DNA of 21,945 bases from a virus (IMGVR_UViG_3300044678_003079:1-21945); one strand, 5' to 3'. Shown: positions 1,580 to 17,748, counted from the first letter of the stretch. Notes: generated by a model from the letters alone, not told the origin. Made by a program: numbers and translations.

Positions 1580-1864
1580 TCAGTCCTGATCGTCTGGATC
1601 GTGGTCGTAGCCCCATGCCTCGGCAGTAGCTTGATCGGAGAACGGGCCGGCATGGGCGAGAAGAGTCCCAGCAGTGAACGTACGTGCACGGCCTCCGGCG
1701 AAAACCATGGCATGGGTACTGGTGCCGTCTTCTTCGTAGCTCAACAAGACGGCGAACCAGCCGGCGCCTGCTGGCGGATCTGTGCTCCAGGTCCAACCAT
1801 CGATCAATGGGGAGCTAGACGCGAAGCCTTCTGTGATCGCAGTGATCTTGCTGAAATCCGTCAT
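1580..1864 (-). CDS. Hypothetical acidic protein
   Basis: The product is 94 residues, acidic and Gly/Ala-rich, with several aromatic residues (DGWTWSTDPP, GWFAVLLSYEEDG, AWGYDHDPDDQD end). I do not recognise a family. It reads as a small beta-rich soluble protein without signal peptide or membrane segment. The ATG lies 3 bp after the stop of the upstream minus-strand gene, so the two form an operon. The stop codon abuts that of the convergent head morphogenesis gene with no gap. It is the last gene of the minus-strand unit that begins near 4273 and is now interrupted by an insertion sequence. Confidence 0.6.
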   Translation of the reverse strand: MTDFSKITAITEGFASSSPLIDGWTWSTDPPAGAGWFAVLLSYEEDGTSTHAMVFAGGRARTFTAGTLLAHAGPFSDQATAEAWGYDHDPDDQD

Positions 1865-1867
1865 GTC

Positions 1868-2140
1868 TCAGCCGCCTTGCGCTTGCATGGGAGTGATAAC
1901 ACTAAAAGTGAAGGAATCGTCTTCCTGCTGCGTGATCTCCAGCCAGGCGGCTTCTTGGTTCAGCCGGTCGAACAGCTCCTGAATTGCATCAGGCACTGAG
2001 CCGTCAGATCGCAGGTGAATGTGCAGGCAGCGGCTCGTTTCAGCAAGCTGCACAAAGTTATGCCCAGGCATGTTCAACTCGGCGAACTCTTTCCTCAGGT
2101 GGCTGTAGCCCCTGAACCGGGCAGTGGCTGATTCGTCCAT
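1868..2140 (-). CDS. Hypothetical protein
   Basis: The product is 90 residues with a mixed alpha/beta look (FVQLAETSRCLHIHLRSDGS, VPDAIQELFDRLNQEA, AWLEITQQEDDSFTFSV). No family is recognised. The 15 bases covering the ATG and leader (2138-2152) are identical to those of the minus-strand gene starting at 3746, which supports this start and suggests a shared leader function. The IS5 element lies just upstream: removing it leaves only about 33 bp between the stop at 3396 and this start, so the gene was originally next in line after that gene. Transcription may now depend on read-through from the IS or on a new promoter. Confidence 0.6.
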   Translation of the reverse strand: MDESATARFRGYSHLRKEFAELNMPGHNFVQLAETSRCLHIHLRSDGSVPDAIQELFDRLNQEAAWLEITQQEDDSFTFSVITPMQAQGG

Positions 2141-2152
2141 GGGGAGCGTGCG
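2138..2152 (-). repeat. Leader repeat, copy 1 (CGCACGCTCCCCATG)
   Basis: These 15 bases read CGCACGCTCCCCATG on the minus strand and end in the start codon of the gene at 1868-2140. An identical copy precedes the gene at 3396-3746. It is pyrimidine-rich and contains no Shine-Dalgarno sequence. Confidence 0.6.
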
Positions 2153-2156
2153 TTAG

Positions 2157-2172
2157 GGAAGCTCTGGGCAAC
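2157..2172 (+). repeat. IS5-family terminal inverted repeat, left
   Basis: GGAAGCTCTGGGCAAC at the left end, directly after the TTAG target copy. It matches the reverse complement of the right end at 11 of 16 positions. Confidence 0.75.
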
Positions 2173-2325
2173 AAGGTCGTGAAACGCAGTTTGCGCTCCG
2201 ATTTGTTCCTAATGAACGTTCTTGGTGCAGATTGAGGAAGAGTTGGCCTGATTCTACTGATTTTTGGCGAATTTACCCTCCTATTTAGGCCTATCTGGCT
2301 CCCAATGGGCACACCAATCCCTTTT

Positions 2326-3306
2326 TCATGTCCTGCATAGCAGCTGATGCCTGGCCATGAATAGGTTCGTAAGGGCAGACAACACATTCACCTTGCAGCG
2401 ATTCTTCAACATGCCGCGTAACCGGGTCTTCTGGAAGCCGAATTGACGCTTGATCACGCGAAACGGGTGTTCAACTTTGGCGCGGATGTGAGCCTTGGCT
2501 GTCTCGATCAGCTCATCCACCCTCCCCTCGGGCGTGTCTGGCAGCACTCGCCGCTTCCCGGGTCGCATGGCAACCCGAAAGCCGATGCCCTTGCCTTCCA
2601 TCTCGTCGCGCTTCTCAATCCCTTGGTAGCCGGCGTCGGCATAGACCACCGTCTCCTCGCCGTGAAGCAGATCAGCCGCTGGCGTTAGGTCGTGCACATT
2701 GGCGGCAGTGGTTTCCACCGAGTGGATCAGCCCGGTGTCCTTGTCCACGCCGATGTGGACTTTCATGCCGAAATACCACTGGTTTCCCTTCTTGGTCTGA
2801 TGCATCTCGGGATCCCTCTCCTTCTTCTCGTTCTTGGTCGAGCTAGGAGCCGCGATCAAGGTTGCATCGATGATGGTGCCCTGCTTCATGGCCATGCCGT
2901 TCGCCTTGAGGTGCGCTTTTACTACCTCAAAGATCTGATCGCCCAGATCGTGCTTCTCCAACAGGTGCCGGAACGCCAGGATCGTGGTCTCATCAGGGAT
3001 CCGGTCAGTGATCAGTGCGATGCCAGCGAATCGGCGCATCGTCGGCACCTCGATTAATGCATCCTCCATGGCTGGATCGCTGAGGTCATACCACTGCTGC
3101 AGCAGATGAATCCGCAGCATGGTTTCCAACGGATAAGGCGGGCGACCACCCTTGCTCGTCGCCTTGGGGTAGTGGGGCTCGATCAGGTCGATCAGCGCCT
3201 TCCATGGCACAACGACCTCCATCTCCGCAAGGAAGCGCTCGCGTCTGGTGCGTTTTTTTGCAGTGGTCTGCTCGTAATCTCCGAAGCCAAGCTGCTTGCT
3301 GCCCAT
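2326..3306 (-). CDS. IS5-family transposase
   Basis: The product is 326 residues from the preferred ATG (MGSKQLGFGDYEQ); an upstream in-frame start at 3327 would add seven residues. It carries the IS5-type DDE catalytic triad: Asp147 in IIDATLI, Asp224 in VYADAGYQG and Glu279 in RAKVEHPFRVIKRQFG. The RxxxE...K spacing of the E region is as expected (Arg275, Glu279, Lys286). The N-terminal part contains the family's VPWKALIDLIEPHYPK and GRPPYPLETMLRIHLLQQWY segments. The length is normal for the family, with no frameshift or internal stop, so the enzyme is probably functional. It catalyses cut-and-paste or copy-out movement of the surrounding element. Confidence 0.95.
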   Translation of the reverse strand: MGSKQLGFGDYEQTTAKKRTRRERFLAEMEVVVPWKALIDLIEPHYPKATSKGGRPPYPLETMLRIHLLQQWYDLSDPAMEDALIEVPTMRRFAGIALITDRIPDETTILAFRHLLEKHDLGDQIFEVVKAHLKANGMAMKQGTIIDATLIAAPSSTKNEKKERDPEMHQTKKGNQWYFGMKVHIGVDKDTGLIHSVETTAANVHDLTPAADLLHGEETVVYADAGYQGIEKRDEMEGKGIGFRVAMRPGKRRVLPDTPEGRVDELIETAKAHIRAKVEHPFRVIKRQFGFQKTRLRGMLKNRCKVNVLSALTNLFMARHQLLCRT

Positions 3307-3358
3307 CAACCCAGTCCATACCTGCAATCACAGGCCAATTTTCGCGCAGGTGGGCTGG

Positions 3359-3374
3359 GTTTTCCAGTGTCTCC
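3359..3374 (-). repeat. IS5-family terminal inverted repeat, right
   Basis: Read on the minus strand it is GGAGACACTGGAAAAC, sharing GGA, C, CTGG and AAC with the left end. The TTAG target copy follows at 3375-3378. Confidence 0.75.
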
Positions 3375-3395: not shown

Positions 3396-3746
3396 TCAGC
3401 GATGCGGCGGTTTCTTTATCTCTTTCAGAGATGAGTCGAAGATGTAAGGGCTGTCGATCTTCCCAGCCTCGACGGCGGCGGCAGCGTATGCCCGGCCAAA
3501 CTCAGCAAAAGCGTATTTGGCCTGCTTCATTGTCGCCAGGACTTGGTTCATCTGCTTGCCAACCGACCGAACAACTTCGGCGTAGCGCCGGATGCGTGCA
3601 GAGAACAGCTCCTCAGGCTTCGCAGGCCAGAGCTTGTCCCACTGCATCTGGCCCCAGATGGTGCCGCCTCTGAAGGGGGCAGTGTTGACCCAGTGGATGC
3701 GACCGATCCGGCCTCCGGTGCTGGTGAAGGAAAAGAAGGTGACCAT
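3396..3746 (-). CDS. Hypothetical protein
   Basis: The product is 116 residues. The N-terminal part is aromatic and glycine-rich (FFSFTSTGGRIGRIHWVN, GGTIWGQMQWDKLW); the middle is a charged helix (FSARIRRYAEVVRSVGKQMNQ) followed by an Ala-rich helix (AFAEFGRAYAAAAVEAG). No family, signal peptide or membrane segment is recognised. The start shares a 15-bp leader with the gene at 1868-2140. It lies downstream of the HTH gene at 3785 on the same strand, and the IS5 element was inserted just after its stop. Confidence 0.55.
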   Translation of the reverse strand: MVTFFSFTSTGGRIGRIHWVNTAPFRGGTIWGQMQWDKLWPAKPEELFSARIRRYAEVVRSVGKQMNQVLATMKQAKYAFAEFGRAYAAAAVEAGKIDSPYIFDSSLKEIKKPPHR

Positions 3747-3758
3747 GGGGAGCGTGCG
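3744..3758 (-). repeat. Leader repeat, copy 2 (CGCACGCTCCCCATG)
   Basis: Identical to the leader and start codon at 2138-2152 and ends in the ATG of the gene at 3396-3746. A looser version, GCTCCCCA, lies upstream of the minus-strand gene starting at 15100. Confidence 0.6.
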
Positions 3759-3784
3759 ATGGGGGAGGGGTGCCGTGGTGGTGC

Positions 3785-4273
3785 TCAGGCAGCGAGGGTC
3801 TTGCGGACCTGGTAGCGGGTGAGCCCCAGTGTGCCTGCAATCTCGCGCTGGCTTAGCCCCTGAGCGGCGAGACGCCGGACCGAAGGCGGGGCGACGTTGG
3901 CGGGGGTGGTGACCGAAGCGGCATCTGGGGCCGGCATAAGTTCGGCGCCGTTAGTGGTAGCAACGGGTTTCGGCCCCACGGGGGTGATGACCATTTCCGT
4001 GGCGCCAGGAAATTGGTCTGGAGCTGAACTTGTAAGCAAGGCTTTCAAGTTGCCCCCGGACAACCCCAGCGTGGCCAGGCCGTGGAGCTGGTGCTCCTGG
4101 GCCCAGGCCACCAGCTGATGCCAGCGCTCGCCGGCCATAAAACCCAGCGTGTAGATCAGGGCCACCACCGCCCCCAGGCGGCGGGCAGCGGCATGGAGCG
4201 TCGGCCCCCAGTCGGAGGAGAGCCCCCGGGTGATGGTCTTCAGATCGGGAACGGTGATGCAGATCGTGATCAC
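3785..4273 (-). CDS. HTH protein with internal hydrophobic segment, putative regulator
   Basis: The product is 162 residues from a GTG start at 4273 (MITICITVPDLKTITRG); a second GTG at 4351 would add 26 Pro/Gly-rich residues that look non-coding. The C-terminal end (about residues 131-160, VRRLAAQGLSQREIAGTLGL then TRYQVRKTL) is a clear helix-turn-helix of the resolvase/sigma-region-4 style. Residues 33-48 (LGAVVALIYTLGFMAG) form an uncharged hydrophobic stretch that is either a short membrane anchor or the core of a soluble helix bundle. A Pro/Ala/Thr-rich linker joins it to the HTH. It heads the minus-strand unit 4273-1580 and is divergent from the integrase, with a 17-bp palindrome about 100 bp upstream. 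A role as local transcription regulator is inference. Confidence 0.65.
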   Translation of the reverse strand: MITICITVPDLKTITRGLSSDWGPTLHAAARRLGAVVALIYTLGFMAGERWHQLVAWAQEHQLHGLATLGLSGGNLKALLTSSAPDQFPGATEMVITPVGPKPVATTNGAELMPAPDAASVTTPANVAPPSVRRLAAQGLSQREIAGTLGLTRYQVRKTLAA

Positions 4274-4374
4274 GGGTCTGTCCTGTGACGATCCCGGCGG
4301 CTGCTCAGAGCCTGCGCGGGGTGGGTTGTAAGGCGGTTTCAGCAGGGCCACTCAGGGCTCTTCTGCTGACCCTG

Positions 4375-4391: not shown

Positions 4392-4428
4392 GCAGTGCGA
4401 TGGGCACGGCTCAGGACAGGCACGGATT

Positions 4429-4581
4429 ATGCACCAGCCCCCAGACCCCTTGCTATCACTGGCTTGGCACTACGACATCCGCGAGATTGACGAGGATTTG
4501 TATCTTGCAGTTCTGGCCTATCGTCGCAGTCAAAACGCAGCCACTGACAGCGATCTGAGCGGCACGGCGCCACGGCCTTAG
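4429..4581 (+). CDS. Possible small ORF upstream of integrase
   Basis: A 50-residue product from ATG 4429 (MHQPPDPLLSLAWHYD, IREIDEDLYLAVLAYRRSQN). The frame stays open upstream to a GTG at 4285, but that part looks non-coding. The acidic-then-aromatic helix is compatible with a real small protein, and it precedes the integrase on the same strand by about 100 bp. No family is recognised. Together with the two palindromes, this is all I see in the 4274-4681 stretch. Confidence 0.3.
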   Translation: MHQPPDPLLSLAWHYDIREIDEDLYLAVLAYRRSQNAATDSDLSGTAPRP

Positions 4582-4622
4582 GTGACAGGAAGGGACAGCA
4601 AGGGACTAGAAAGGCGTACGTT

Positions 4623-4639
4623 ATGCACGGGCCGTGCAT
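4623..4639. promoter_or_regulatory. 17-bp palindrome upstream of integrase
   Basis: ATGCACGG-G-CCGTGCAT is a perfect inverted repeat with 8-bp arms around one base. It ends 42 bp before the preferred integrase start and overlaps an alternative GTG start at 4634. It could be a binding site controlling integrase expression, a recombinase arm or core site, or a hairpin in the leader transcript. The sequence alone does not decide between these. Confidence 0.4.
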
Positions 4640-4681
4640 CGGTCGCAGGTCTGCTCCCCGTCCGTTTCGTATTCGCCGCCC

Positions 4682-5686
4682 ATGGCCTCGATCACTGCCC
4701 AAAAGGGCCGGCTCTACCTGCTGGCCAGCCTGCCGCGGCGCGACGGGGCTCCAGGGCTGCAGCAGACCCGCATCGCCCTGCGGCTGGACGACACGCCGAT
4801 CAACCGCCGGGCCGCCGCGAAGCAGCTCAAGACCCTGGAGCAGCAGTTGGAGAGCGGCACCTTTGAATGGGCCTACTGGCTGGACGAGGCATCAGGGACG
4901 ATCACGTGGCGCGAGGCCATTGCCAGGCTCTACCGGGCTCGGGTGGTGCTCGGCCGCACGGGGCAAAGCACGTGGGAGATCAACTATTTGGGGCGACTGC
5001 GGCAGATCCAGCCAGCCAGCGCCTGCACCACCGCCAGCATGGCCAAGGCTCTGGAGCGCTACGACCGCAGCACGTGCAGCTACAAGGAGCTGTTCTACCT
5101 TCTGCGGCATCTGGCCAGGTTGGTGGCGGTGCCGTTCCCGGAGGTGCCGTTGCCCACCTACAACCAGGCCCAGTTGGTGGCGGTGCCCACCGACGAGCAG
5201 ATCATTGCGTGGGTGGAGGGGGCGCCCGATCCCGTGCGGTGGTACTGGGGGATGATGGCTTGCTACGGCCTGCGGCCTCATGAGATTGAGGGGGCGGCGC
5301 TGATCGATCGGAATCTCTGCCAGGTGGCGGATGGCACCAAGACCGGGTTCCGCACGGTGGTGCCGCTGCCCCGTGAGTGGGTAGAGCGGTTCGGGTTGCG
5401 GGATCGGCGGTTGCGGTTGCGCCTAGAGGGAAGCGCCGATCGGCCGGATGCGGTCAGCAAGTGGTTGCACAAGGAGCTTCGCCGGCAGGGGTTGCCGTGG
5501 CGGCCTTACTCCCTGCGCCACGCCTACGGCGGGAGGCTATGGCGAGAGGGCGGCAGCAGGCTTGACATCTACACCGCTGCTCGCCTGATGGGTCACACCC
5601 CAGGCCAGCACTCCCGGACCTACCGCGCTCACATTCAGCCGCACCAGGTGGCAGAGGCGGCGGAGAGGGCGTTAGGGGGAGGCTGA
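4682..5686 (+). CDS. int: Tyrosine recombinase / phage integrase
   Basis: The product is 334 residues from ATG 4682; a GTG at 4634 inside a palindrome would add 16 residues. The N-terminal third resembles an arm/SAM-like DNA-binding region. The C-terminal catalytic domain shows Arg198 in YGLRPHEIEG, Lys220 in DGTKTG as the likely beta-hairpin lysine, box II as YSLRHAY (Arg279), His305 in RLMGHT and the nucleophile Tyr314 in SRTYRAH. The usual first histidine of the HxxR motif is tyrosine (Tyr276). The length fits phage and genomic-island integrases. Its 3' end overlaps the convergent HTH gene by 15 bp. It presumably catalyses integration and excision of the element. Confidence 0.9.
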   Translation: MASITAQKGRLYLLASLPRRDGAPGLQQTRIALRLDDTPINRRAAAKQLKTLEQQLESGTFEWAYWLDEASGTITWREAIARLYRARVVLGRTGQSTWEINYLGRLRQIQPASACTTASMAKALERYDRSTCSYKELFYLLRHLARLVAVPFPEVPLPTYNQAQLVAVPTDEQIIAWVEGAPDPVRWYWGMMACYGLRPHEIEGAALIDRNLCQVADGTKTGFRTVVPLPREWVERFGLRDRRLRLRLEGSADRPDAVSKWLHKELRRQGLPWRPYSLRHAYGGRLWREGGSRLDIYTAARLMGHTPGQHSRTYRAHIQPHQVAEAAERALGGG

Positions 5687-5902
5687 GGGCTGCCCCGTCC
5701 CCGGCGCCACCGCCGCAACATTCACCCGCACGCAGCGCCTGCTGCTACCCACGGGCGCCAGGTCGATCAGCTCCCGGCCCCAGCGCCAGCGGGATTTGCG
5801 GTTGGCGTCGGCCTCGTGGATGAGCCTTTTGATATGGCGATCGGAAACCCCGAGGGCCTCGGCAGCTTCCGCAACGGTCAGCAGCACGCGAGCGGCGGCC
5901 AT
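5672..5902 (-). CDS. Small HTH protein, xis-like
   Basis: The product is 76 residues from ATG 5902; an in-frame TTG at 5908 adds two. Residues 8-30 (LTVAEAAEALGVSDRHIKRL) form a winged-helix/MerR-type HTH of the sort found in excisionases and small phage regulators, followed by a basic stretch (RKSRWRWGRELI). The start overlaps the stop of the preceding gene by one base (TGATG), making it the last gene of a four-gene operon. Its 3' end overlaps the integrase 3' end by 15 bp on the other strand. An excisionase or directionality factor fits the size and position, but it is not transcribed with the integrase as many xis genes are. Confidence 0.75.
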   Translation of the reverse strand: MAAARVLLTVAEAAEALGVSDRHIKRLIHEADANRKSRWRWGRELIDLAPVGSSRRCVRVNVAAVAPGTGQPSASP

Positions 5903-6336
5903 CAGCAACGATCCTCCGGGTCACACTGCTGCTGCTCCCTCTTTGCCAACCGTTCCGGCAGCGGCGGCAGCGGACCGGCCATGCCGTCCAGGGTGGCCCA
6001 GAGGTAGACGCCTTCCACCACCTGGCTGTCGTGGCCCTGAAGGTTCCAACGCACCAGGCGCCTGACGGCCTCCCTGGCTGTAGCCATAGCGCTCCGCAGC
6101 CGCTCGTCCTCCTGCCGCAGCTCGCGCACGCATTCGGGACACCCCCAGGCGTTGGTTGGTTGCTGGCCGTGGGTGGGGCAGTTCTGAAGACGGAGGCGGG
6201 CAGCTTCGGCGCGCCCTGCATTTCTCCAATAAACGGCCAAAAGCCTATTCGCTGCGTTCAATTCGTCTTCCAGCCGACGGATCGTGCGCCACGGGGTCAG
6301 CAGGCGGGCGAAGGCGCGGAGGTTGCCGTTGCTCAT
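5902..6336 (-). CDS. Putative zinc-binding coiled-coil protein
   Basis: The product is 144 residues, rich in Arg and Glu. It has predicted helices at about 15-50 (RRLEDELNAANRLLAVYWRN) and 70-100 (RELRQEDERLRSAMATAREA) flanking a possible metal knuckle: Cys53-x2-His56-x9-Cys66-x2-Cys69. Such a finger between coiled coils suggests a DNA-binding or scaffolding role, but no family is recognised. It overlaps the upstream ASCH gene by 4 bp (ATGA) and the downstream HTH gene by one base, so it is translationally coupled with both. Confidence 0.65.
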   Translation of the reverse strand: MSNGNLRAFARLLTPWRTIRRLEDELNAANRLLAVYWRNAGRAEAARLRLQNCPTHGQQPTNAWGCPECVRELRQEDERLRSAMATAREAVRRLVRWNLQGHDSQVVEGVYLWATLDGMAGPLPPLPERLAKREQQQCDPEDRC

Positions 6337-6728
6337 AGCTGCACCCCCGGAACATCAAAAAAGCCGAGCTGACCCTTGAAGGGAATAAACTCCAGCGGCT
6401 TTGGATCCTGCAGGACAAACCCATAAGGGCCTTGAAACCATGGCGAATCAGACTGGTAAACGCAATCCACAAGATTTACGCTGCCAATGATGCCGCCGCG
6501 AGGCAGGTGGGTTGGCTCAAGATCATCAAGTCTGACTGGGTCAAGGATGCAAGTCGCAAAACTGGCAAAAGCCCTAGCCTTTATGTATTCCCTTTTTGTC
6601 ATACCTTTAGCCGCATGGATCAAGATCCGCCCTCGCACTTTTGCCTCCCATGTGCGGTTTTCAATGTTCTTGCCAGCCAGCAGGATCAAGCTGGCCCATG
6701 GCTGGCGGATGGATAGGGCGAGGGTCAT
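6333..6728 (-). CDS. ASCH domain-containing protein
   Basis: The product is 131 residues and almost entirely an ASCH domain (PUA-like beta-barrel). It starts with the diagnostic LSIRQPWASLILLAGKNIENR segment, followed by TW, GRILIHAAKG (33-42), GGIIGSVNLVDCV (about 77-89) and GPYGFVLQDPKPLEFIPF near the end. ASCH proteins are thought to bind RNA or modified nucleotides, and one member (YqfB) hydrolyses N4-acetylcytidine. They recur in phages and mobile elements. It overlaps both neighbours by 4 bp in a minus-strand operon. The substrate cannot be read from the sequence. Nucleic-acid or nucleoside processing, possibly linked to host defence or its evasion, is inference. Confidence 0.87.
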   Translation of the reverse strand: MTLALSIRQPWASLILLAGKNIENRTWEAKVRGRILIHAAKGMTKREYIKARAFASFATCILDPVRLDDLEPTHLPRGGIIGSVNLVDCVYQSDSPWFQGPYGFVLQDPKPLEFIPFKGQLGFFDVPGVQL

Positions 6729-7027
6729 GGCTGCGTCCGGCCTTGATTGACGGCGCGGATCAGCTGCTCAGGGCATTGCCTGACGGTTTCGGCCACCATC
6801 AGCTGCTGAAACGACGGGTCGCGCATCTCTGAGGACCAGAGATAGACGTTGTCGGCAATGCCCACGCGCACGGCTGCCTGAATGTTCAGGTCGGCGCCTA
6901 GGGCCCGGCAGATCGAACCGGCCGCGGCCCAGGCCGCAGTGCCCACGCCGGCATGGGCTGGCGCCGCATGGCAGGCGCCGAGCGTCAGCAGGGCGGTGGT
7001 GATCGCAAAGCGGGAAAACGATGTCAT
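6725..7027 (-). CDS. Small exported protein with signal peptide or lipobox
   Basis: The product is 100 residues from ATG 7027 (MTSFSRFAITTALLTLGAC); a longer frame reaches 7102 but adds a non-signal-like segment. The N-terminus is a classic signal: short basic n-region, hydrophobic core, then either a lipobox (LGAC at 16-19) or a type I site (APAHA before Gly). The mature part is about 75-80 residues with two further cysteines (SICRALGAD, VRQCPEQLI), which could form a disulfide in the periplasm. It is first gene of the four-gene operon and overlaps the ASCH gene by 4 bp. An exported protein near an integrase suggests superinfection exclusion or another lysogenic-conversion function, but this is inference. 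Confidence 0.7.
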   Translation of the reverse strand: MTSFSRFAITTALLTLGACHAAPAHAGVGTAAWAAAGSICRALGADLNIQAAVRVGIADNVYLWSSEMRDPSFQQLMVAETVRQCPEQLIRAVNQGRTQP

Positions 7028-7123
7028 TGATCCGGGTCGGCTCAGTCCGGGGACGATCGGATCATACCCCCACAGCCGAACTGATGTATTGTTGTTGCGC
7101 ACTCACAACGTAGCGATCTCAAC

Positions 7124-7372: not shown

Positions 7373-7456
7373 GCTGCGGCCCCCATGGCAAGGCCCTGCA
7401 TTGGCATTGCCAACCAGGGCCATGCCTACCATGAGGGCGATCCACCGTCGCCATCC

Positions 7457-7750
7457 ATGAACCGTAACGAATGCGCCTACGCCGCCCAGCATTTCCTGGC
7501 CTTCCTGAAGCAGGTCGGCCCGATCGAAGCGGCATGGGTCATGAACACGGTTCTCGAGCCCCTCATGGAGCGGCCTCCAGAGCATGACCACGTGGCCGTG
7601 GCGGAGAAGGCCCTTGAAGAGGCGCTGACTGAGTTTGATGAGCTGGCCCAGGTTGCCAGCAGCGAGCCAGCAGACGGTGGTGGAGAAGCGCTGCTGGCTG
7701 AAGGACTCACACCAGAGCCCACCGCCAAGAAATCCGGCAAGGCCAGCTGA
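7457..7750 (+). CDS. Hypothetical acidic protein
   Basis: The product is 97 residues from ATG 7457 (MNRNECAYAAQHFLAFLKQ); an earlier ATG at 7385 is open but less coding-like. The N-terminal two thirds are helical (VGPIEAAWVMNTVLEPLMER, VAEKALEEALTEFDELAQV), and the tail is low-complexity, ending KKSGKAS. It lies between the small membrane protein and the tail-fibre cassette on the same strand. The 55-residue ORF ending at 15463 has a similar Pro/Ala/Lys tail (GKRPKAS), which may be coincidence. No family is recognised. Confidence 0.55.
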   Translation: MNRNECAYAAQHFLAFLKQVGPIEAAWVMNTVLEPLMERPPEHDHVAVAEKALEEALTEFDELAQVASSEPADGGGEALLAEGLTPEPTAKKSGKAS

Positions 7751-7787
7751 TTGTGAGGCCTAGCCTGACGCCAGCTGCCCGCCAGCC

Positions 7788-8141
7788 GTGACACAGCCGC
7801 AAATCCTCACGCTCAGCGCGGTCTACGAAGGCACGACGTGGGAAGGAATTAACTCGGTAACGCTGGAGCAGCCGGTCGGGACCCCGCTGAACCTGACCAA
7901 TGCGCAGCTGCGCATGATCTACCGGCGAGTCGGTGAGAACCTGGAGAGGTTGAATCTTGTTGTTGGCGCTGGGATTCAGCTCACCAATGCGGTCGGTGGC
8001 GTCTTTCGAGTTCTCCCGCAAATCCTGCCATTGACGGCAGGAAGTTATTACTGGGAGATCATCCTCACGCAAGCCAGCGGAACGATCATCCCGCTTTTCG
8101 CTGGCACACAGGAAATCACCAGGCTTGGGAGGGCGTCGTAA
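7788..8141 (+). CDS. Putative tail/baseplate-associated beta-sandwich protein
   Basis: The product is 117 residues from a GTG start. The pattern of short beta-strands (LTLSAVYEG, NAQLRMIYRRVGENLERLNL, IQLTNAVGGVFRVL, SYYWEIILTQASGTII, GTQEITRL) is the one I know from BppU N-terminal-like small proteins encoded just before phage tail fibres. These carry a 'material property' sandwich that docks a fibre to the baseplate. It ends 2 bp before the start of the fibre gene, so the two are translationally coupled. The docking role is inferred from position and fold style. Confidence 0.65.
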   Translation: MTQPQILTLSAVYEGTTWEGINSVTLEQPVGTPLNLTNAQLRMIYRRVGENLERLNLVVGAGIQLTNAVGGVFRVLPQILPLTAGSYYWEIILTQASGTIIPLFAGTQEITRLGRAS

Positions 8142-8143
8142 CA

Positions 8144-9706
8144 GTGGATATTTCGGCAGTTGTTGTACTGGACGAAACCACCCTCCAGGCCACGGTGAAC
8201 CCACCGCCTGGGGGAGGAAATGGCGAAGGTGGCGCATCCCTGAGCGATGCCACTCCCCAGGCCCTGGGCCCTGCAGCCGCTGGCACCGCTTCGACAGGCA
8301 GCCGCAGCGACCACCGCCACGCCATGCCCACGGCTGCCCAAGTTGGCGCGGACGCCACCGGGACAGCCGCGGCGGCAGTGGCGGCCCACGCCGCCGCGGC
8401 GGACCCCCACCCCAGCTACACCACCGGAGCAGAGGCAGCGGCAGCGGCCCCGGTGCAGTCGGTGTCGTTGTCAGCACCCAGCGGCTGGAGCACCAGCACC
8501 ACCAACACGGGCGGCAACGTCACCCTGACACTGGACCTGCCCACGGGATTCAGCCTGCCAAGCAACACCAGCCAGGGCAACTGGAACACCGCCTACGCGG
8601 AGCGGACTCGATGGGACGGTGGCAGCACGGGGCTGAACCCCGCCACCGGCCGCACAAGCCTGGGCCTGGGATCTGCGGCCACAACCGCCGCATCCGCCTA
8701 CGCCACGGCAGCCCAGGGGGCCAAGGCCGACACGGCTGTTCAGCCTGCCACGCTCACCTCTGGGCTGGCGGCCAAGGCCGACCTAGTGGACAGCGTGGTG
8801 CCCACCAGCCAGATCCCCGCCATCGCCCTGGTGCAATACCTGGGCTCGGTGGCCAATCAGTCCGCAATGCTCGCCCTGAGGGGGCAGGGAGGCGACTGGT
8901 GCATCAGAACCGATGGCCAGGCCAGTGAGTGGGTGATTGTCGCTAACGACGGCGCTTCACTGGCCGATTGGGTACAGCTGCCGACGTCAGCGGCTGGCGT
9001 CAGCTCGATCAACGGGCAGACCGGCGTTGTCACGCTGGGAACAGGCGACCTTGCCGAGAGCGGCGGCAACCTGTTCTTCACTGCCGTCCGAGCGATCGGC
9101 GCGGCTCTGGCCGGATTCACCGCAGGGGCCGGGACCGTTGCGGCGACCGATTCAATCCTCCAGGCCTTGCAGAAGGTGGTCGGCAACATTGCTGAAAGAG
9201 CACTGGCGGGCGTCATCACCGGCTCTGGCCTCACGATCGGCACTGGAAAGATTGCTGGCCGATTTACGGCTGGGACCGGGGCCATTGAGGAGCTAACGCC
9301 AACTGGTGGGCTTTCAATCCAAAGCGGCAACCTTGTAATGACCGAGGGCATAGTCCTCACCATTTCAAACAAGGGAGAAACTGCGGCTCCTGCTAATAAC
9401 TACGAAGAGAAAGCCGTAGATCGGGCTTGCACAGTGGTAGCTGTAACTTTTGAATTAAACCCGACAACTGTATCAACCAGCGGCAGCAGCCAGGTGATGC
9501 TGTTTGCCCGCCGCAGTGGGACAAGGACCAACCTTTTGAGCGCCAACGCATCCCTGCCCGTGACCACTGGCATTTTTACAAATGTCAGTGGCACCCTCAC
9601 GGGCACCCTGACCCTTGCGGCCGGGGATTCCATAGGGGCCGACCTAATCCAGGTCGGCACGGGGGCCACCGGCCTAAAACTCACTGTTTTCGTTCGTTAC
9701 TCCTAA
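8144..9706 (+). CDS. Phage tail fibre / receptor-binding protein
   Basis: The product is 520 residues from a GTG start. It is a mosaic of typical fibre modules: a short N-terminal strand region; LSDATPQALGPAAAGTAS and SDHRHAMPTAAQVGADATG (about 27-75), the collagen-like/His-rich spacer seen in many tail fibres; HAAAADPHPSY; then SSINGQTGVVTLGTGDLAES (about 287-306) and NLFFTAVRAIGAAL...DSILQALQKVVGNI, a common trimeric fibre unit. The last 120 residues are a Thr/Ser-rich beta domain (about 405-520) likely to be the receptor-binding tip. The DNA becomes noticeably AT-richer from about 9340, where the tip begins, suggesting that the tip was exchanged by recombination. Confidence 0.85.
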   Translation: MDISAVVVLDETTLQATVNPPPGGGNGEGGASLSDATPQALGPAAAGTASTGSRSDHRHAMPTAAQVGADATGTAAAAVAAHAAAADPHPSYTTGAEAAAAAPVQSVSLSAPSGWSTSTTNTGGNVTLTLDLPTGFSLPSNTSQGNWNTAYAERTRWDGGSTGLNPATGRTSLGLGSAATTAASAYATAAQGAKADTAVQPATLTSGLAAKADLVDSVVPTSQIPAIALVQYLGSVANQSAMLALRGQGGDWCIRTDGQASEWVIVANDGASLADWVQLPTSAAGVSSINGQTGVVTLGTGDLAESGGNLFFTAVRAIGAALAGFTAGAGTVAATDSILQALQKVVGNIAERALAGVITGSGLTIGTGKIAGRFTAGTGAIEELTPTGGLSIQSGNLVMTEGIVLTISNKGETAAPANNYEEKAVDRACTVVAVTFELNPTTVSTSGSSQVMLFARRSGTRTNLLSANASLPVTTGIFTNVSGTLTGTLTLAAGDSIGADLIQVGTGATGLKLTVFVRYS

Positions 9707-9711
9707 ACACC

Positions 9712-10377
9712 ATGACCCCCCTGACCCCCACAGCAATAAACCCCATCACTGGAATTGAGTATTACACCTCAGGACCATTAGATGGCAAAAGCGTTGCTTT
9801 GTTTGTTAATGTAAGCAACGGCAATATTAACAACCCAAGCGGTGACCGCTGGCCCACCGGCAACGGTGGCGTTCACGACTTCAGCGAAGAATTCTACGAA
9901 TATGTGCCGTTCCAGGGAGCGCCTTTTGACACCGAGCTTAGGTTTGTTGATTCCGAAAACAGTGGCCGTTTTCTAAAGCCAGCCGTACCCAAGCCACCAA
10001 CCGGCCACCCTCAGGGGACATACGAGGAGACCCGCTTGCTCAAGCGGCGCAGTAAAGCCGAGCTGAAAACTTTGGCTAGGGGGTACTGGGAATCTAGTAA
10101 CCGTGCGCTTTGGCCGCAAGAGCTTGGGTATAATGAAAAATTGGCTTGGGCTGAAAAACAGATAGCGGCACAAAACAATTTACCTGAATTTACAGTTCTT
10201 GTGGAACGCCACGAAAAACTTTTGGCTGCTTCGTTTCATAACGATAAAAGACTAGCTGTAATCTACGCTGCGATTGAAGAGGCTGGGGAAACCGGCAATA
10301 TTGACGATTGGCCGTTTAGCAAAATGCAGGACGACAGCGAAGGTGCTACGGGCTGGGTCAATGGAATTGAGGAGTAA
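9712..10377 (+). CDS. Tail-fibre-linked hypothetical protein
   Basis: The product is 221 residues. It opens with a short beta-rich part (INPITGIEYYTSGPLDGKSV, ALFVNVSNGNINN) and becomes charged and helical in the second half (EETRLLKRRSKAELKTLARG, LAWAEKQIAAQ, VERHEKLLAASF). It follows the fibre gene by 5 bp and is followed by a second fibre-like gene. Fibre chaperones commonly occupy this place, but I see no known chaperone motif. The region is clearly AT-richer than the head genes and so probably arrived with the fibre tip. Confidence 0.65.
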   Translation: MTPLTPTAINPITGIEYYTSGPLDGKSVALFVNVSNGNINNPSGDRWPTGNGGVHDFSEEFYEYVPFQGAPFDTELRFVDSENSGRFLKPAVPKPPTGHPQGTYEETRLLKRRSKAELKTLARGYWESSNRALWPQELGYNEKLAWAEKQIAAQNNLPEFTVLVERHEKLLAASFHNDKRLAVIYAAIEEAGETGNIDDWPFSKMQDDSEGATGWVNGIEE

Positions 10378-10444
10378 TGAACTGCGCCTTCCGCCGCCAT
10401 GGATTTCCTCTGCGGCTGGCCCGCCAGATGGGAGGGTGCAAAAA

Positions 10445-11308
10445 GTGATTCACTCTTCTAGGCGGCGGGCGCCAACTCTATGGACCCTCGCGAACACCTC
10501 CACTGAGCTGCTGCTGCTGCCGAACGAGGCAGGCACTGTCACAACTACATCGGGAGCGGTAAGTCAGATACAGGACGCCAAGGGAAACGGCCTGGTATTT
10601 AACGGCGCCGCCGGAAGTCGGCCCACTATTACGGCGAACGCGCTAAATGGCAAGGCCAGCCTTACTTTTAGCGGCTCAGAATGGCTTACCTTTGCAGGCT
10701 TAGCATCAGTATTCAATTTTCTTCACATAGCCGCCGGGGCCGGTGCAACGGTTATCGCCGTGTGGGAAGCTGGAACCAGCAGCGACCCTAACGCAATCTA
10801 TGGCTTATGCGGAAACAGTGGCATACTCACCACAAGTCACGGTTTTGGCATGTTTTATGACGACAGGTTTAATGTCTCCAGAAACAATACATTCACTGCC
10901 CAAATCGTTCGCGGTGTCCCTGCCCAGCCTACAGCGCAAAACATATCAGGGAACGGTGCGCACTCAGCGAATACACCTGTAATAGTTGCGCATACATTTA
11001 ACCCAGCCGCAGCGCTTCCAGCAAATAGGTCAATACTCCGCGTCAACGGCATAGAAATTAAAAACAATACATTCACAAACCTTGCCTCTACGGCAAATGC
11101 TACCCACTTATTGCAAGTCGGGGCGACCGGCGGCAATGCATTCCCGCTTGTTGGCAAGGTATTTATGCTTGGCATCCTGTCGCCTGGCACTACCCAGGAC
11201 ACCATCCTGCAGGCAGAGGGCTACGTCGCCGGCCCGGTCGCCGGATGGAACCTACAAAACCTCCTCCCCGCAGGGCATCCCTACAAATCCGACGCACCAA
11301 CGGTGTGA
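10445..11308 (+). CDS. Putative LamG/concanavalin-like fibre or receptor-binding protein
   Basis: The product is 287 residues from GTG 10445, with a Shine-Dalgarno GGGAGG at 10430-10435. The frame is open upstream, with ATG at 10361 and 10274, but those starts overlap the previous gene. The segment SGAVSQIQDAKGNGLVFNGA then GSRPTITANALNGKASLTFSG is the familiar opening of phage and secreted concanavalin/LamG-type domains, which bind glycans. The rest is beta-rich (LRVNGIEIKNNTF, LLQVGATGGNAFPLVGKVFM). It probably is a second adhesin or a decoration of the tail tip. The base composition is AT-rich like its upstream neighbour. The stop lies in a 14-bp tandem duplication. Confidence 0.7.
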   Translation: MIHSSRRRAPTLWTLANTSTELLLLPNEAGTVTTTSGAVSQIQDAKGNGLVFNGAAGSRPTITANALNGKASLTFSGSEWLTFAGLASVFNFLHIAAGAGATVIAVWEAGTSSDPNAIYGLCGNSGILTTSHGFGMFYDDRFNVSRNNTFTAQIVRGVPAQPTAQNISGNGAHSANTPVIVAHTFNPAAALPANRSILRVNGIEIKNNTFTNLASTANATHLLQVGATGGNAFPLVGKVFMLGILSPGTTQDTILQAEGYVAGPVAGWNLQNLLPAGHPYKSDAPTV

Positions 11309-11324
11309 CCCCAACGGTGTGACC
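11297..11324 (+). repeat. 14-bp perfect tandem duplication at a stop codon
   Basis: Two adjacent exact copies of CCAACGGTGTGACC, at 11297-11310 and 11311-11324. The TGA in the first copy ends the adhesin-like gene; the second copy lies in the untranslated gap. It looks like a recent slippage duplication. Confidence 0.75.
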
Positions 11325-11383
11325 CCGGCGGCCGGGCCTCCCTATCACCATGCCCATACTTGACTCAGAACGCTGCAGGCCCT

Positions 11384-11644
11384 GTGGATCGACGAACTGA
11401 AATGGTGCGGCTGGCCACTGAGCTGCTGAGTGAACAGATCCGCCCGGTGCGGATCGTGGCGATTTCCGATGCCGGCGGTGAGCCCCAAGGCGAGTTCATA
11501 TCGAACCAGACGCGCTTCACCTTCAAGTTCACCAAGGGCGGAATGGTGACCTACAAGCCCAAGGGCCAGGGCGGCGGCGGCCGGGAGGACAGCACTCTCC
11601 AGGCCCGGATCGAGCGCATGAAAGCCCGCCTGGGGGCATCGTGA
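11384..11644 (+). CDS. Hypothetical phage protein
   Basis: The start is uncertain: GTG 11384 (MDRRTEMVRLATELLSEQIR) is preferred, with TTG 11360 and ATG 11402 as alternatives; the product is 80-94 residues. It has an N-terminal helix, a beta-rich centre (RPVRIVAISDAGGEPQGEF, TRFTFKFTKGGMVTYK), a Gly-rich linker and a short basic helix at the end (LQARIERMKARLG). No family is recognised. Its stop overlaps the next start (TGATG), so it is the first gene of a coupled trio with the coiled-coil and polyvalent proteins. It marks the return to high-GC phage backbone after the AT-rich fibre cassette. Confidence 0.6.
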   Translation: MDRRTEMVRLATELLSEQIRPVRIVAISDAGGEPQGEFISNQTRFTFKFTKGGMVTYKPKGQGGGGREDSTLQARIERMKARLGAS

Positions 11645-12093
11645 TGAACTGGATCGAGGGCCTGCTGGATCACCTCGCCACGAAGCTGGCGCTCAAGGTC
11701 CGCGCCCAGCTGGATGGTGCGATCGATGCCGCGCTGGATCGGGCGGAAGACCGGATCGACACGGCCTTTGAGGGGCTGGAGGAGCGGCTGCATGCAGCGG
11801 CCACCAAGCGCATCGCAGACCTGAAGGTGACGCTGGGGCCGGTCCTCCAGTTGCAGCAGCAGATCGAGCCTCTGGAGGCGGCGGTGAAGCCTGCCCTGGC
11901 TCTGCAGCAGCAGATCGAGGCCATCAGCCCGGAGCGGCTGCAGGCTGCCGCCGAAGCCGCCGGAATGATCCCAGCCAAAGAAATGAAGGCCCAGAACGCC
12001 TTTGCAGCCTCATCCGCGAGTGATGCCGCAAGGGACCACCTGCGCAGCCGCTTGACGCCGCCCCGGCCGTGGAAGGAGATCCCTGATCGATGA
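11644..12093 (+). CDS. Coiled-coil phage protein
   Basis: The product is 149 residues from ATG 11644; a GTG one codon earlier is also possible. It is almost wholly helical, with heptad-like Leu/Ala spacing: LDHLATKLALKVRAQLDGAI, ALDRAEDRIDTAFEGLEERL, LQLQQQIEPLEAAVKPALAL, QQQIEAISPERLQAAAEAA. There is no signal peptide or zinc motif. The C-terminus is basic and Pro-rich (RSRLTPPRPWKEI). It overlaps the upstream stop by 1 bp and the downstream polyvalent gene by 4 bp (ATGA). A scaffold or accessory structural role is plausible from size and coiled coil, but unproven. Confidence 0.65.
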   Translation: MNWIEGLLDHLATKLALKVRAQLDGAIDAALDRAEDRIDTAFEGLEERLHAAATKRIADLKVTLGPVLQLQQQIEPLEAAVKPALALQQQIEAISPERLQAAAEAAGMIPAKEMKAQNAFAASSASDAARDHLRSRLTPPRPWKEIPDR

Positions 12094-14528
12094 GTCGCCA
12101 CCAGTCCCTGCTGGATCGCCTCTCGGCCATCGAGGCCCAGCTTGTCTCGACAAACCGGCAGGCCCTGCCCCGGCAGCCCATGGCCCTGCGGCATGACGCT
12201 GGCGATCGGGTCTCCCCGGTGCTGCAGGAGGTACTGGCCGAAGTGCTCCCCGGCGCCCTGGTGCTCGACTGGCGGCAGGAGGGTGCTGCCCATGCCGGGC
12301 GGATGGCCGCCGATGGCCTGGTCTACCGGTTCCGTATCGATGCCGAAGGCGTCGGCTATCGCCCCGCTTGGGAGGGGGTGCTGCAGCGTGGCTGGGAGCT
12401 GCGATCGGATTCGTTCCTGCAACTGCGGGCCCCCGGCTCCCGGATGGACTTCCGCCGCACCCGGGCCGGCAGTGGCCAGAAGCGGAAATGCGCGACGGGC
12501 TACGGCTGCGGCAACGCCTGCATCTCCCTCCAGAAGGAGTGCCGGATCGCCCCCCGTTCAGCGCTCGGCAAGGGCCGCCTGCGGCGCCTCCAGCAGCTGG
12601 CTGCCGCCGGCGACCAGTCGGCCAGGGCCACTGCCAGCCAGGTGCAGGCCTCCCGCGGGGCGGCCGCAGCGGCCCTGCAGAAGGACCGCACCACCCAACG
12701 GGTGCAGAAGCTGCTCGAGCGGCCGGAGATTGCCGAGTTCCTGCGCACCGGCAAGCTCCCATCCGGGGCCAACAGCTCCACCGAGCCCGGGACCGTCCGG
12801 GAGATGAAGCCAGGGGAGATCGGCTTCGATCCCTCCCGGTTCCAGTACAAGCTCAACGCCACCGCCACCACCGGCGAGGTGGGCAGCCTGTCGGGGGTGC
12901 GCAAGTGGGACGCCAACCTCTCCGGCGTGATGGCTGTCTGGAAGGACCCAGGCGACGGCAAGGTCTACGTGATCAATGGCCATAACAGGCTGGCCCTGGC
13001 CAACCGCCTGGGGGCGGAGGCCGTCACCGTGCGGTTCCTGAACGCCGCCACCGCCACCGAGGCCCGGGCGATCGGGGCCCTGCAGAACATCGCCGAGGGG
13101 GCTGGCAGCCCAATGGATGCGGCCAAGTTCTTCCGCGACACCGGCATCAAGAGCCAGCAGGACGTGGAGGCCCGGGGCCTGCCCCTGGGCAGCGGCCAGG
13201 CCTCCAAGGGGCTGAGCCTCAGCAAGTTGCCTGGCGACGTCTTCAACGCCGTGGTGCGGGGTGACCTGACCGTAAACCGCGGGGCGATCATCGGCGGCAG
13301 TGGCCTCGATGACACCAAGCAGCGGGAGGTGTTCAAGATGATCGGCTCCCGTAAGGCCATCACCGATCAGACCCTGCAGGAGCTGGTGGAGCATGCCGCT
13401 GCCAGCGTGCAACGCACTCAGACCACGATGAGCCTGTTCGGCGAGACCGAGGAGGCCAAGGACAACCTGCTTACCCGGGCCAAGCTGTCCGCCGGTCTGA
13501 AGGCCAAGATCGCCCGGGAGAAGCGCCTCTTCTCCACCGTCAGCAAGGCCAAGGCCGCCAGCAGCCTGACCGAGAAGGGCGGGAACGTGATCAACCAGGA
13601 GCAGAGCGCCAAGGTGGCCGGCGAGGCCAGCGAGGCCCTGGGGGTGTTCGAGCGGCTGAAGAGCTCCTCTGGCCCGATCAGCTCCGCCCTAAACCGTGCC
13701 GCCGATCGGGTCGAGGCTGGCGAGGCCGAGGCCACGGTGCGGAAGGAGCTGGAGCAGGATGTCTTCAAGGCGGTGCAGGCAGAGCTGGAGGCGGTGGGAC
13801 TGCGCAAGCGGCCCTGGGCCGACAGCCTGCAGGAGCGGATCGATGCCCTTAAACGGAAATGCAGCACCGGCTATGGGTGCGGGTCGGCATGCATCTCCCT
13901 GCGGAAGGAATGCCGCAGCCAGCCCCAGTCGGCCATGGGGAAGGAGCGAATGCGCAAGCTGCTGGCCCTGGCGGCCGGCGGCACCAGCGGCCAGCGGGGC
14001 ATCGCCCCAGTGCGGGCCCAGGAGGCCGCCGGCCTGGCCGCCGGGATTGAGCAGCAGCGAGGGGCCAAGGCCGGCCAGCTGCGCGGTGCTCGCCAGCAGG
14101 CCGCGGCGAAAGCGGCTGCAGCCAAGCCTGCTGAGCCTGGTCAAGAGGCTGTTAAGCTCCGCAGCGAAACGAAGGGGAGGAGTGCAAATATGGCATTGGC
14201 CCCGTCTTACAGACGCGTTGCATTAACAAAAGAGTCGATTCAGGGCAGGCTGACACGTCGGTCCAAGCGAGAACGTGAACTCTCTAGCCTTACCGAAACG
14301 CAAAAGGTCGCGGCCAAAAAAGTGAGCCATCGCAGGCAAACCTTTTTAACTTTTGTGTCAGGGCTGGCAATAAAGCATGGGGCCAAACACAAGGCGACCC
14401 AAGAAGAAAAAGATATGGCGTGGAAGAGTGCGTTCCTTTCAAGGCCGATTTACAGCACGCGGCAGAAAATAACTCCTGACTTTGGCGCGAAGACGCTTGA
14501 GGCGCGGGGAATTAGATACAACTATTGA
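12090..14528 (+). CDS. Polyvalent-type protein with DdrB-like ParB domain and duplicated Cys motif
   Basis: The product is 812 residues. The centre (about 240-340) is a ParB-superfamily domain of the DdrB-like type: FDPSRFQYKLNA, then VRKWDANLSGVMAVWKDPGD, VYVINGHNRLALANRLGAE with the INGHNR motif at 295-300, and EARAIGALQNIAEGAGSPMD. It is flanked by two near-identical cysteine motifs, KCxTGYGCGxACISLxKECR, at residues 131-152 and 588-609. From memory, this combination recurs in the large multi-domain 'polyvalent' proteins of phages and conjugative elements, which may be injected with the DNA to protect or modify it. The last roughly 120 residues are Lys/Thr-rich and coded by visibly AT-richer DNA (from about 14160), hinting at a swapped C-terminal module. 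The start is coupled to the upstream gene by ATGA. Confidence 0.8.
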   Translation: MSRHQSLLDRLSAIEAQLVSTNRQALPRQPMALRHDAGDRVSPVLQEVLAEVLPGALVLDWRQEGAAHAGRMAADGLVYRFRIDAEGVGYRPAWEGVLQRGWELRSDSFLQLRAPGSRMDFRRTRAGSGQKRKCATGYGCGNACISLQKECRIAPRSALGKGRLRRLQQLAAAGDQSARATASQVQASRGAAAAALQKDRTTQRVQKLLERPEIAEFLRTGKLPSGANSSTEPGTVREMKPGEIGFDPSRFQYKLNATATTGEVGSLSGVRKWDANLSGVMAVWKDPGDGKVYVINGHNRLALANRLGAEAVTVRFLNAATATEARAIGALQNIAEGAGSPMDAAKFFRDTGIKSQQDVEARGLPLGSGQASKGLSLSKLPGDVFNAVVRGDLTVNRGAIIGGSGLDDTKQREVFKMIGSRKAITDQTLQELVEHAAASVQRTQTTMSLFGETEEAKDNLLTRAKLSAGLKAKIAREKRLFSTVSKAKAASSLTEKGGNVINQEQSAKVAGEASEALGVFERLKSSSGPISSALNRAADRVEAGEAEATVRKELEQDVFKAVQAELEAVGLRKRPWADSLQERIDALKRKCSTGYGCGSACISLRKECRSQPQSAMGKERMRKLLALAAGGTSGQRGIAPVRAQEAAGLAAGIEQQRGAKAGQLRGARQQAAAKAAAAKPAEPGQEAVKLRSETKGRSANMALAPSYRRVALTKESIQGRLTRRSKRERELSSLTETQKVAAKKVSHRRQTFLTFVSGLAIKHGAKHKATQEEKDMAWKSAFLSRPIYSTRQKITPDFGAKTLEARGIRYNY

Positions 14529-14537
14529 CGCATTCAG

Positions 14538-14744
14538 TCATTTCGACGGGTTGCGGGAACTTCTTTTGCGAGCGGCATCTGCGTCTTTGCCTGCAGGCGT
14601 TTTCCTTCCGCATCTAGAGCAAAGAGGCAAAAAGACCTGCCCCCAGACTTTGCGGCCGCATTGTGGGCACACTGGGCAAGGCGGTGCGTCGCCAGAAAGG
14701 CGCGCACGATGCCTCTTCACCCGCTCCCCAGAAGGATCAGGCAT
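14538..14744 (-). CDS. Small zinc-ribbon protein
   Basis: The product is 68 residues, very basic. It carries a zinc-ribbon pattern Cys26-x2-Cys29 (PQCGRKVWG) and Cys42-x2-Cys45 (LCSRCGRK), with an extra Cys23. It is preceded by a basic helix (GERVKRHRARLSG) and followed by a basic tail (ARKRSSRNPSK). That arrangement suggests a small nucleic-acid-binding protein of the kind common in phage accessory regions. It is convergent with the polyvalent gene (9-bp gap). The conserved metal pattern makes it unlikely to be a chance ORF. Confidence 0.55.
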   Translation of the reverse strand: MPDPSGERVKRHRARLSGDAPPCPVCPQCGRKVWGQVFLPLCSRCGRKTPAGKDADAARKRSSRNPSK

Positions 14745-14794
14745 CGAGATCCACCAGCAAGAGCCATGCAGCGATGGTCGGGTCGTAGCGAGGA

Positions 14795-15100
14795 TCAGTC
14801 GGCACAGTAATCATCTGGCAGTTCGTCAAGAACTATGTAGGCATAAGCGGACCTGCGGCTACCGCAAGTGGCGGCGTGCAACTCATCTAGAGCTTGTCTA
14901 GTGGACGGGATTCCAGCGTACTCGGCGATTGCAATGTCACGGTGCCGCTCAACCATGGCCATTCGCTCAATAAACTGCATGTAGTCCATGCCTGGGTTGT
15001 CTTCCGTCTCGCGCAAGCGAATAAACTCTTGCTCGAAAGGTGCAACCACTTCTTTGTAGCCTTCCATGAAGGCAAGATATTTTGTGTGCGTTACAGGCAT
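14795..15100 (-). CDS. Hypothetical helical protein
   Basis: The product is 101 residues from ATG 15100 (MPVTHTKYLAFMEGYKEVVA); an in-frame start at 15118 adds six residues. It is mostly helical and acidic (PFEQEFIRLRETEDNPGMDY, MQFIERMAMVERHRDIAIAE) and ends in an acidic tail. No family, signal or membrane segment is seen. The leader contains GCTCCCCA, a looser form of the leader shared by the minus-strand genes at 2140 and 3746. It is probably an accessory gene with its own promoter in 15101-15295, where I see no convincing consensus promoter. Confidence 0.55.
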   Translation of the reverse strand: MPVTHTKYLAFMEGYKEVVAPFEQEFIRLRETEDNPGMDYMQFIERMAMVERHRDIAIAEYAGIPSTRQALDELHAATCGSRRSAYAYIVLDELPDDYCAD

Positions 15101-15295
15101 GGCTGAAGTGGGGAGCAAGGGTTGACACTCCCGGACTGCTGGGAGCGGATCGGCCCGGTTTTACGCCTATGGCCGGCTGGCGGTGCGGGTCTCCCCCGCG
15201 CTCCCGAATCGTAACGTCTGGCGGACGCGGAAACGCGGCCCATGTGTGTCAGTTGATCACCCGTAACAAGTGGCGGAATCTCTAGCCTGTTCCTG

Positions 15296-15463
15296 ATGCC
15301 CCGATCCACGACTATGCCCACCCCCGCCACCCCCCAGGCCCCCCGCAGCGATGGCGAGGCCATCGACTGGGCCAACGTGGCTGTGGAGACCACCGTGATG
15401 CTGCGCCTGCAGGAGGCCCCACCGGTGGCCGCGGCACGGGGCAAGCGGCCAAAGGCCAGCTGA
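15296..15463 (+). CDS. Small hypothetical ORF, 55 residues
   Basis: The frame runs ATG 15296 to TGA 15463 (second ATG 15314). The product has a Pro/Thr/Ala-rich start (TMPTPATPQAPRSDGEA), a short helical segment (IDWANVAVETTVMLRLQEA) and a basic end (GKRPKAS). It ends immediately before the stop of the convergent XRE gene with no gap. That tight packing and the amphipathic segment argue for a real small gene, but there is no family match and no Shine-Dalgarno sequence. Confidence 0.45.
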   Translation: MPRSTTMPTPATPQAPRSDGEAIDWANVAVETTVMLRLQEAPPVAAARGKRPKAS

Positions 15464-15691
15464 TTAGAGCCCCAGCAGCAGGGCCGGATCAATTGCCAGC
15501 AGCAGGCAGATCGATCGCAGCTGGCCAGGGTTCGGATCACGCTCGCCTGAGCACCAGCGGCTGACGGCGCTGCGGTGCACCTCCAACTGCTCCGCCAGCT
15601 GCTGCTGGCTGACGCCCCGCTGTTGCAAGATCACGCCCAAACGTGCACCCAACAGCCGGCGAACCATCGCGTCAGGCAGGAGTGTTGCCAT
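15464..15691 (-). CDS. XRE/Cro-CI family HTH regulator
   Basis: The product is 75 residues, almost all one HTH_3 domain: LGARLGVILQQRGVSQQQLA (14-33) then EQLEVHRSAVSRWCSGERDP (34-53), with the recognition helix around RSAVSRW. The rest is a short hydrophobic helix (LRSICLLLAIDPALLLGL). This is the usual size of small phage Cro-like or antitoxin-type repressors. It is divergent from the capsid protease gene. A palindrome TTATGG-N8-CCATAA begins 8 bp upstream of its start codon, fitting autoregulation and control of the divergent promoter. Without a toxin partner next to it, a repressor role is favoured. Confidence 0.85.
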   Translation of the reverse strand: MATLLPDAMVRRLLGARLGVILQQRGVSQQQLAEQLEVHRSAVSRWCSGERDPNPGQLRSICLLLAIDPALLLGL

Positions 15692-15698
15692 GGTGCGT

Positions 15699-15718
15699 TT
15701 ATGGCATCAACCCCATAA
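15699..15718. promoter_or_regulatory. Inverted repeat between XRE gene and capsid operon, candidate operator
   Basis: TTATGG-CATCAACC-CCATAA has perfect 6-bp arms 8 bp apart, and a further CATAA follows at 15720. It sits in the 75-bp divergent gap between the XRE start (15691) and the DUF2213 start (15767). That is where a small Cro-like protein would bind. Confidence 0.5.
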
Positions 15719-15766
15719 GCATAAAGCTGGCGGCTTCATCTTTCTGGTAGCTCCTGCTATCTGCCG

Positions 15767-17741: not shown

Positions 17742-17748
17742 ACGACCA

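Follow-up and report, generated by a model that had tools for sequence, protein, structure and literature searches.

A split head module with an exchangeable recombinase slot in a group of probable freshwater cyanophages

In a group of phages that probably infects freshwater Synechococcaceae-type picocyanobacteria, the host being assigned only from MAGs that carry related integrases, the gene for the MuF-like minor head protein and the protease-capsid operon are held apart by a long block of other genes. This split is very probably a stable, lineage-wide genome plan with an interchangeable recombinase slot, and not a one-off insertion. The window, the whole stretch of DNA analyzed here, is a 21,945-bp IMG/VR virus record with no host sequence attached. 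Its first base lies within the end of a polyvalent-type gene, which in a longer relative (G001) sits between the portal and MuF genes and is whole there, as a 710-aa ORF with a PF18796 LPD1 domain. The edges of the gap given in the preliminary description are correct, MuF ending at 1579 and the DUF2213 gene starting at 15767, and 14,187 bp lie between them (12,965 bp without the IS5 element). The features of the window are as follows.

1..201, plus strand: C-terminus of the large polyvalent-type protein preceding MuF (tblastn, 73% identical to the end of the G001 ORF)
194..1579, plus strand: MuF-like minor head protein, left edge of the split (PF04233, E 2.3e-8; phrog_115)
1580..2140, minus strand: two small ORFs, 94 and 90 aa, differing among relatives
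2157..3374, minus strand: IS5-family insertion sequence, 1218 bp (PF01609 and PF05598; transposase 2326-3327)
3396..4351, minus strand: two small genes, 116 aa and 188 aa, the latter with a weak HTH_23 match; left flank of the recombinase slot
4427..5905, plus strand: exchangeable tyrosine integrase-xis cassette, with borders taken from serine-integrase relatives and other phage backbones
about 4429-4581: short coding-like segment upstream of the integrase gene
about 4583-4612: GGGAC-type repeats with 11-bp spacing, upstream of the integrase gene
4623-4639: near-palindrome ATGCACGGGCCGTGCAT, unique in the genome
4682-5686, plus strand: integrase, start likely ATG 4682 (phrog_1, 5.6e-14)
5672-5902, minus strand: xis (HTH_17, phrog_66)
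5902..7102, minus strand: g10, ASCH protein (phrog_3193, 4.8e-53) and exported-like protein (g12)
7385..12093, plus strand: late genes, in order two small, tail-fibre-like (8144-9706), one at 9712-10377, virion-structural-like (about 10274-11308), two small
12090..14528, plus strand: large polyvalent-type protein, 812 aa (phrog_21, 1e-50, residues 227-544; phrog_33618)
14529..15463, strand not assigned: variable slot between the polyvalent and HTH genes
15464..15691, minus strand: Cro/C1-type HTH regulator, 75 aa (PF01381, 6.4e-12)
15694..15706, plus strand: operator-like site TGCGTTTATGGCA, directly next to the HTH start, in the intergenic region between the divergent HTH and DUF2213 genes
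15767..21944, plus strand: capsid and neck operon, right edge of the split, running off the contig; in order DUF2213 protease, cement, major capsid, DUF4054, neck/tail-completion genes, Ig-domain protein

The right edge has the order known from DUF2213/DUF2184 head modules, namely protease, cement, major capsid, and DUF4054, with Pfam matches to PF09979 (DUF2213, 5.9e-39), PF22758, PF09950, and PF13262 (Big_5 falls below the cut-off) and phrog matches to phrog_530, 264, and 302; the capsid protein is the PF09950/phrog_264 member. The adjacency of MuF to the protease gene, which is usual and not universal in such modules, is not found in the window. The integrase, xis-like, ASCH, IS5, and fibre-like genes reported earlier are all present between the two edges. 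The left part of the gap (1580-7102) holds small minus-strand genes, IS5, the plus-strand integrase, and the xis-like, g10, ASCH, and exported-like genes. The 116-aa and 188-aa genes are kept in most close relatives and g12 is conserved in most relatives, whereas g10/ASCH is variable cargo. The gap is not cargo throughout: only 1580-7102 and the small regulator slot before DUF2213 interrupt the module, and the plus-strand genes of 7385-14528 are ordinary head/tail late genes. These conserved late genes make up more than half of the gap, and their order (7385..12093) is shared among relatives. The fibre-like gene at 8144-9706 matches phrog_2824, phrog_23595 (tail), and phrog_26941, and the virion-structural-like gene matches phrog_10356. 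No tRNA genes were found in the window or in the MAG phage contigs, and no Rfam family matched.

The polyvalent gene that had been reported is present as well, and it also aligns with the C-terminal region of phrog_21, whose annotation is portal. The protein contains a portal-extension-like domain and two Cys motifs (C..GYGCG..CISL.KECR) and is conserved in relatives, in which 0.55-4.6 kb separate its conserved match from DUF2213. As a separate observation, a short Cys motif, C..GY.CG..CI..(K)..C, repeats within and between the large polyvalent-type proteins that lie to either side of the split, including those at 12090-14528 in the window, at L074:1346-3475, and in L058 (phrog_33618, without a Pfam family).

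The conservation of the split was assessed with 19 capsid loci (82-94% identical) and 41 MuF loci from IMG/VR; no close capsid relative was confirmed in genome contigs. In all eight contigs with both genes, counting the window, the MuF-DUF2213 gap measures 10.1-14.2 kb: 12.6 kb in G001, 12.5 kb in G002, 10.8 kb in G004, 12.0 kb in G013, and 10.1 kb in G007, G009, and G019. In G014 and G011 the gap crosses the contig ends; treating these contigs as circular would give about 9.6 and 16.5 kb. In none of the 15 DUF2213 contigs does MuF occur within 3 kb, and gene order and approximate gap size are common to all relatives examined. An assembly chimera of a phage and another element is hardly credible. 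The contigs are metagenomic and IS5 does break assemblies, as seen in three near-identical contigs (L021-L023) that share the IS5 insertion and end in it; however, the identical order recurs in independent contigs from many metagenomes, including the 67-68 kb contigs G001 and G007.

The preliminary description offered two accounts of the split, a hotspot at which cargo gathers inside the head module or an unusual plan in which lysogeny and late functions are interleaved. The second holds, its order being conserved across relatives. The first, in which recent insertions would have opened an otherwise contiguous head module, is quite improbable and fails as the cause of the split because order and approximate size are common to all relatives. 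Contiguous MuF-DUF2213 versions were sought among close relatives and none was found; they occur in distant phages only. The expectation that these genes lie close together in related phages thus holds often, not always, for distant phages and does not hold for close ones. In Klebsiella Domnhall, Vibrio 13VT501A, Vibrio D82, FP_Brigit, and BUCT618, DUF2213, cement, and a DUF2184-type capsid follow portal/MuF as in the window, but MuF or a gene in its place lies about 0-120 bp from the protease gene. The distance (again from MuF or a gene in its place) is 0.9-1.0 kb in Pseudomonas R12 and Psychrobacter pOW20-A, 3.1 kb in Rhizobium RHEph06, with plus-strand genes, and 7.35 kb in Vibrio 1.248.O. 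Because it is interrupted in RHEph06, 1.248.O, S-CBS4, and probably Acinetobacter LAPP1 (where the MuF gene is unannotated), the junction tolerates insertion in several lineages, which favors a hotspot. The cyanophage group has the longest gap among the phages examined and is the only one with a recombinase in it.

Local turnover also speaks for a hotspot, at a smaller scale. The recombinase, ASCH/g10, and polyvalent-to-HTH slots differ among relatives, as do other small genes, and IS5 is a recent insertion. The element has a DDE transposase, imperfect terminal inverted repeats (11/16 by eye), and a 4-bp target duplication of the YTAR type, TTAG, at 2153-2156 and 3375-3378, and its empty site is seen in L028, L029, L030, and L033, which read TTGG there. 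Within the group, the hotspot is contradicted by the split and shared order in every close relative, leaving it tenable only for these sub-slots or as an ancient event that first opened the split.

The stable plan includes a site at which integration systems are exchanged. The integrase of the window has the catalytic and arm-binding parts of a tyrosine integrase, with Arm-DNA-bind_2 above and PF00589 below the cut-off. PF00589 alone misses most of these integrases, hence protein-level tblastn was used. A recombinase is present in 30 of the 32 contigs with sequence far enough beyond MuF to reach the slot, many of them near-identical, so that independent lineages number fewer than 30; nine carry the tyrosine integrase with xis always beside it, and 21 carry an unrelated serine integrase. 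The latter (about 434 aa; PF00239 1e-26, phrog_95 integrase 9e-37) has the resolvase domain and zinc-ribbon recombinase part of a large serine integrase, Zn_ribbon_recom falling below the cut-off. A search of 300 host-family genomes for this integrase at E<=1e-60 gave no match. The slot has sharp borders: in pairwise DNA comparisons of the window with the serine-type loci L033 and L027, homology stops at 4426 and restarts at 5891/5892. Unrelated recombinases thus occupy one colinear site in related genomes, and on the MuF tree the two states change at least six times, an approximate count since several forks are weak and MuF may recombine. The two contigs without a recombinase, G013 (72% MuF) and L058 (55%), are the most divergent, and their gaps are nevertheless long, so persistence of the gap does not depend on the recombinase.

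The tyrosine cassette also occurs elsewhere. It was found in 39 viral contigs (integrase 73-94% identical, xis adjoining) and in two MAG contigs, from Cyanobacteria bacterium REEB417 and Synechococcaceae bacterium WB9_2_112. Most of the other cassette-bearing contigs gave no MuF or capsid-gene match within the sequence retrieved and seem to be built on a different phage backbone. In L102 and G210 (genome search) the cassette has late genes on one side and minus-strand early genes on the other, an ordinary place. In most of the other cassettes, homology with the window starts at 4427-4429. The third codon positions of the short coding-like segment upstream of int, which was absent from the preliminary description and has an ambiguous start codon, vary about 3-4x more than the others; its conserved core, YDIREIDEDLYLAVLACR, lies 5' of every tyrosine integrase compared, including a chromosomal one (G286). 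In L116 and L122, cargo lies between int and xis, and the 3' end of int recurs after it as a second copy, which suggests repeated insertion at that end.

The half-sites of the near-palindrome change symmetrically in divergent cassette copies, and the palindrome and repeat region can be regarded as a candidate attP core or integrase operator. As a conserved host attB the palindrome was rejected: at up to one mismatch it turned up in just one of 121 host-family genomes, as the phage copy carried by the MAG itself, and none of the 120 others contained the candidate site (4583-4639). Neither attP nor attB was found. The chromosome of G286, a host-family genome, contains a small element (C1, about 980000-985300) with a 49% related integrase, the same xis, an ERF-like gene, and the short upstream segment; it is flanked by an rRNA-methyltransferase-like gene and clpB. 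A search for att repeats around it gave only a 13-bp inverted match flanking int-xis, which resembles shared regulatory sites more than attL/attR.

At the right edge, the preliminary description had spoken of repressors in the gap; the true candidate for this role is the HTH gene adjoining DUF2213. It lies 76 bp before DUF2213 in the window and 76-83 bp away in 15 of 15 DUF2213 contigs. In the close group its protein is 94-99% identical with a pN/pS of about 0.03-0.11, and the constraint on it exceeds that on the capsid protein in both comparisons that allowed the two to be computed; the gene is under purifying selection there. Eight genomes or fragments each contain a single exact copy of the operator-like site (TGCGTTT[A/T]TGGCA), and it is retained in G013/L014 despite an HTH protein identity of only 69%. 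With one exact site per genome, a multi-site repressor is unsupported. We infer that the HTH gene controls the protease-capsid promoter, silencing the capsid half.

Under the lineage-wide plan, one half of the head operon comprises packaging, portal, and MuF and the other fibres, the polyvalent protein, protease, and capsid, with a lysogeny-type block between them. The recombinase would integrate the phage, and cassettes may be swapped by recombination between co-infecting phages, changing the integration system and leaving the virion genes untouched. It is also possible, as a tentative extension, that attP lies in the recombinase cassette, in which case integration would cut the head operon and excision would rejoin its halves, so that excision would gate head assembly. 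Packaging, portal, and MuF would then stand at one prophage end and protease, capsid, and tail at the other, each with its own regulator, and a cassette swap would alter the integration site and keep the gate. An unlikely alternative is that the recombinase acts within the phage genome, by inversion or resolution, or is a vestigial passenger, and that the phages are lytic or episomal. Consistent with this, the integrase lies inside phage sequence with no visible host border in the two larger of the MAG contigs that carry a close relative, the palindrome is missing from the 120 other host-family genomes, and a capsid search of 400 host-family genomes, run without a positive control, gave no lysogen of the group. 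Against it, the xis partner is constant, the recombinase is replaced rather than lost, and the G286 element places a relative with the same xis and upstream segment in a host-family chromosome. Lysogeny in unicellular cyanobacteria is considered rare (PMC6157547). A recombinase in almost every genome of these uncultured phages, with repeated exchange of type, suggests that a temperate or episomal life style is maintained, and a lysogeny cassette stably embedded in the head operon would offer a clean case for the effect of integration on late-gene continuity.

The window phage is a distant relative of the Synechococcus cyanosiphovirus S-CBS4 (NC_016766). S-CBS4 shares the protease, cement, and capsid order, a minus-strand repressor-like gene directly before the protease (29% identity to the window HTH over 65 aa, in the same place), and extra genes between portal and protease. 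However, its capsid is only 43% identical, and its gap of 4.4 kb holds glycosyltransferases, a methyltransferase, and HNH, in contrast to the integrase, fibres, and polyvalent protein of the window group. An integrase in the structural module has been reported for S-LBS1, a 34.6-kb freshwater Synechococcus siphovirus with a tyrosine integrase, described as S-CBS1/S-CBS3-like (PMC6157547); it is likened here, in host and integrase position, by published description only. Cluster A actinobacteriophages provide a known example of interchangeable tyrosine integrase, serine integrase, or parABS cassettes at one place (PMC7157519). Both groups carry alternative lysogeny-maintenance cassettes at a colinear position, but the cluster A hosts are actinobacteria. 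The cluster A cassette is central in the genome and outside the head operon. What is new is the integrase position as an exchange slot, the same int-xis cassette in other backbones, and the constrained HTH with an operator-like site facing the capsid operon.

Two further observations concern the left half of the module. In G001 (18018-19281, L073), genes for a sigma-70-type factor and a LexA-type DNA-binding protein lie just before the portal gene. In L118:5109-7313 (G011) and L052, MuF has an intein-like insert at a conserved cysteine, giving a 735-aa ORF with splicing-type residues C...HN|C and an Intein_splicing match below the Pfam cut-off.
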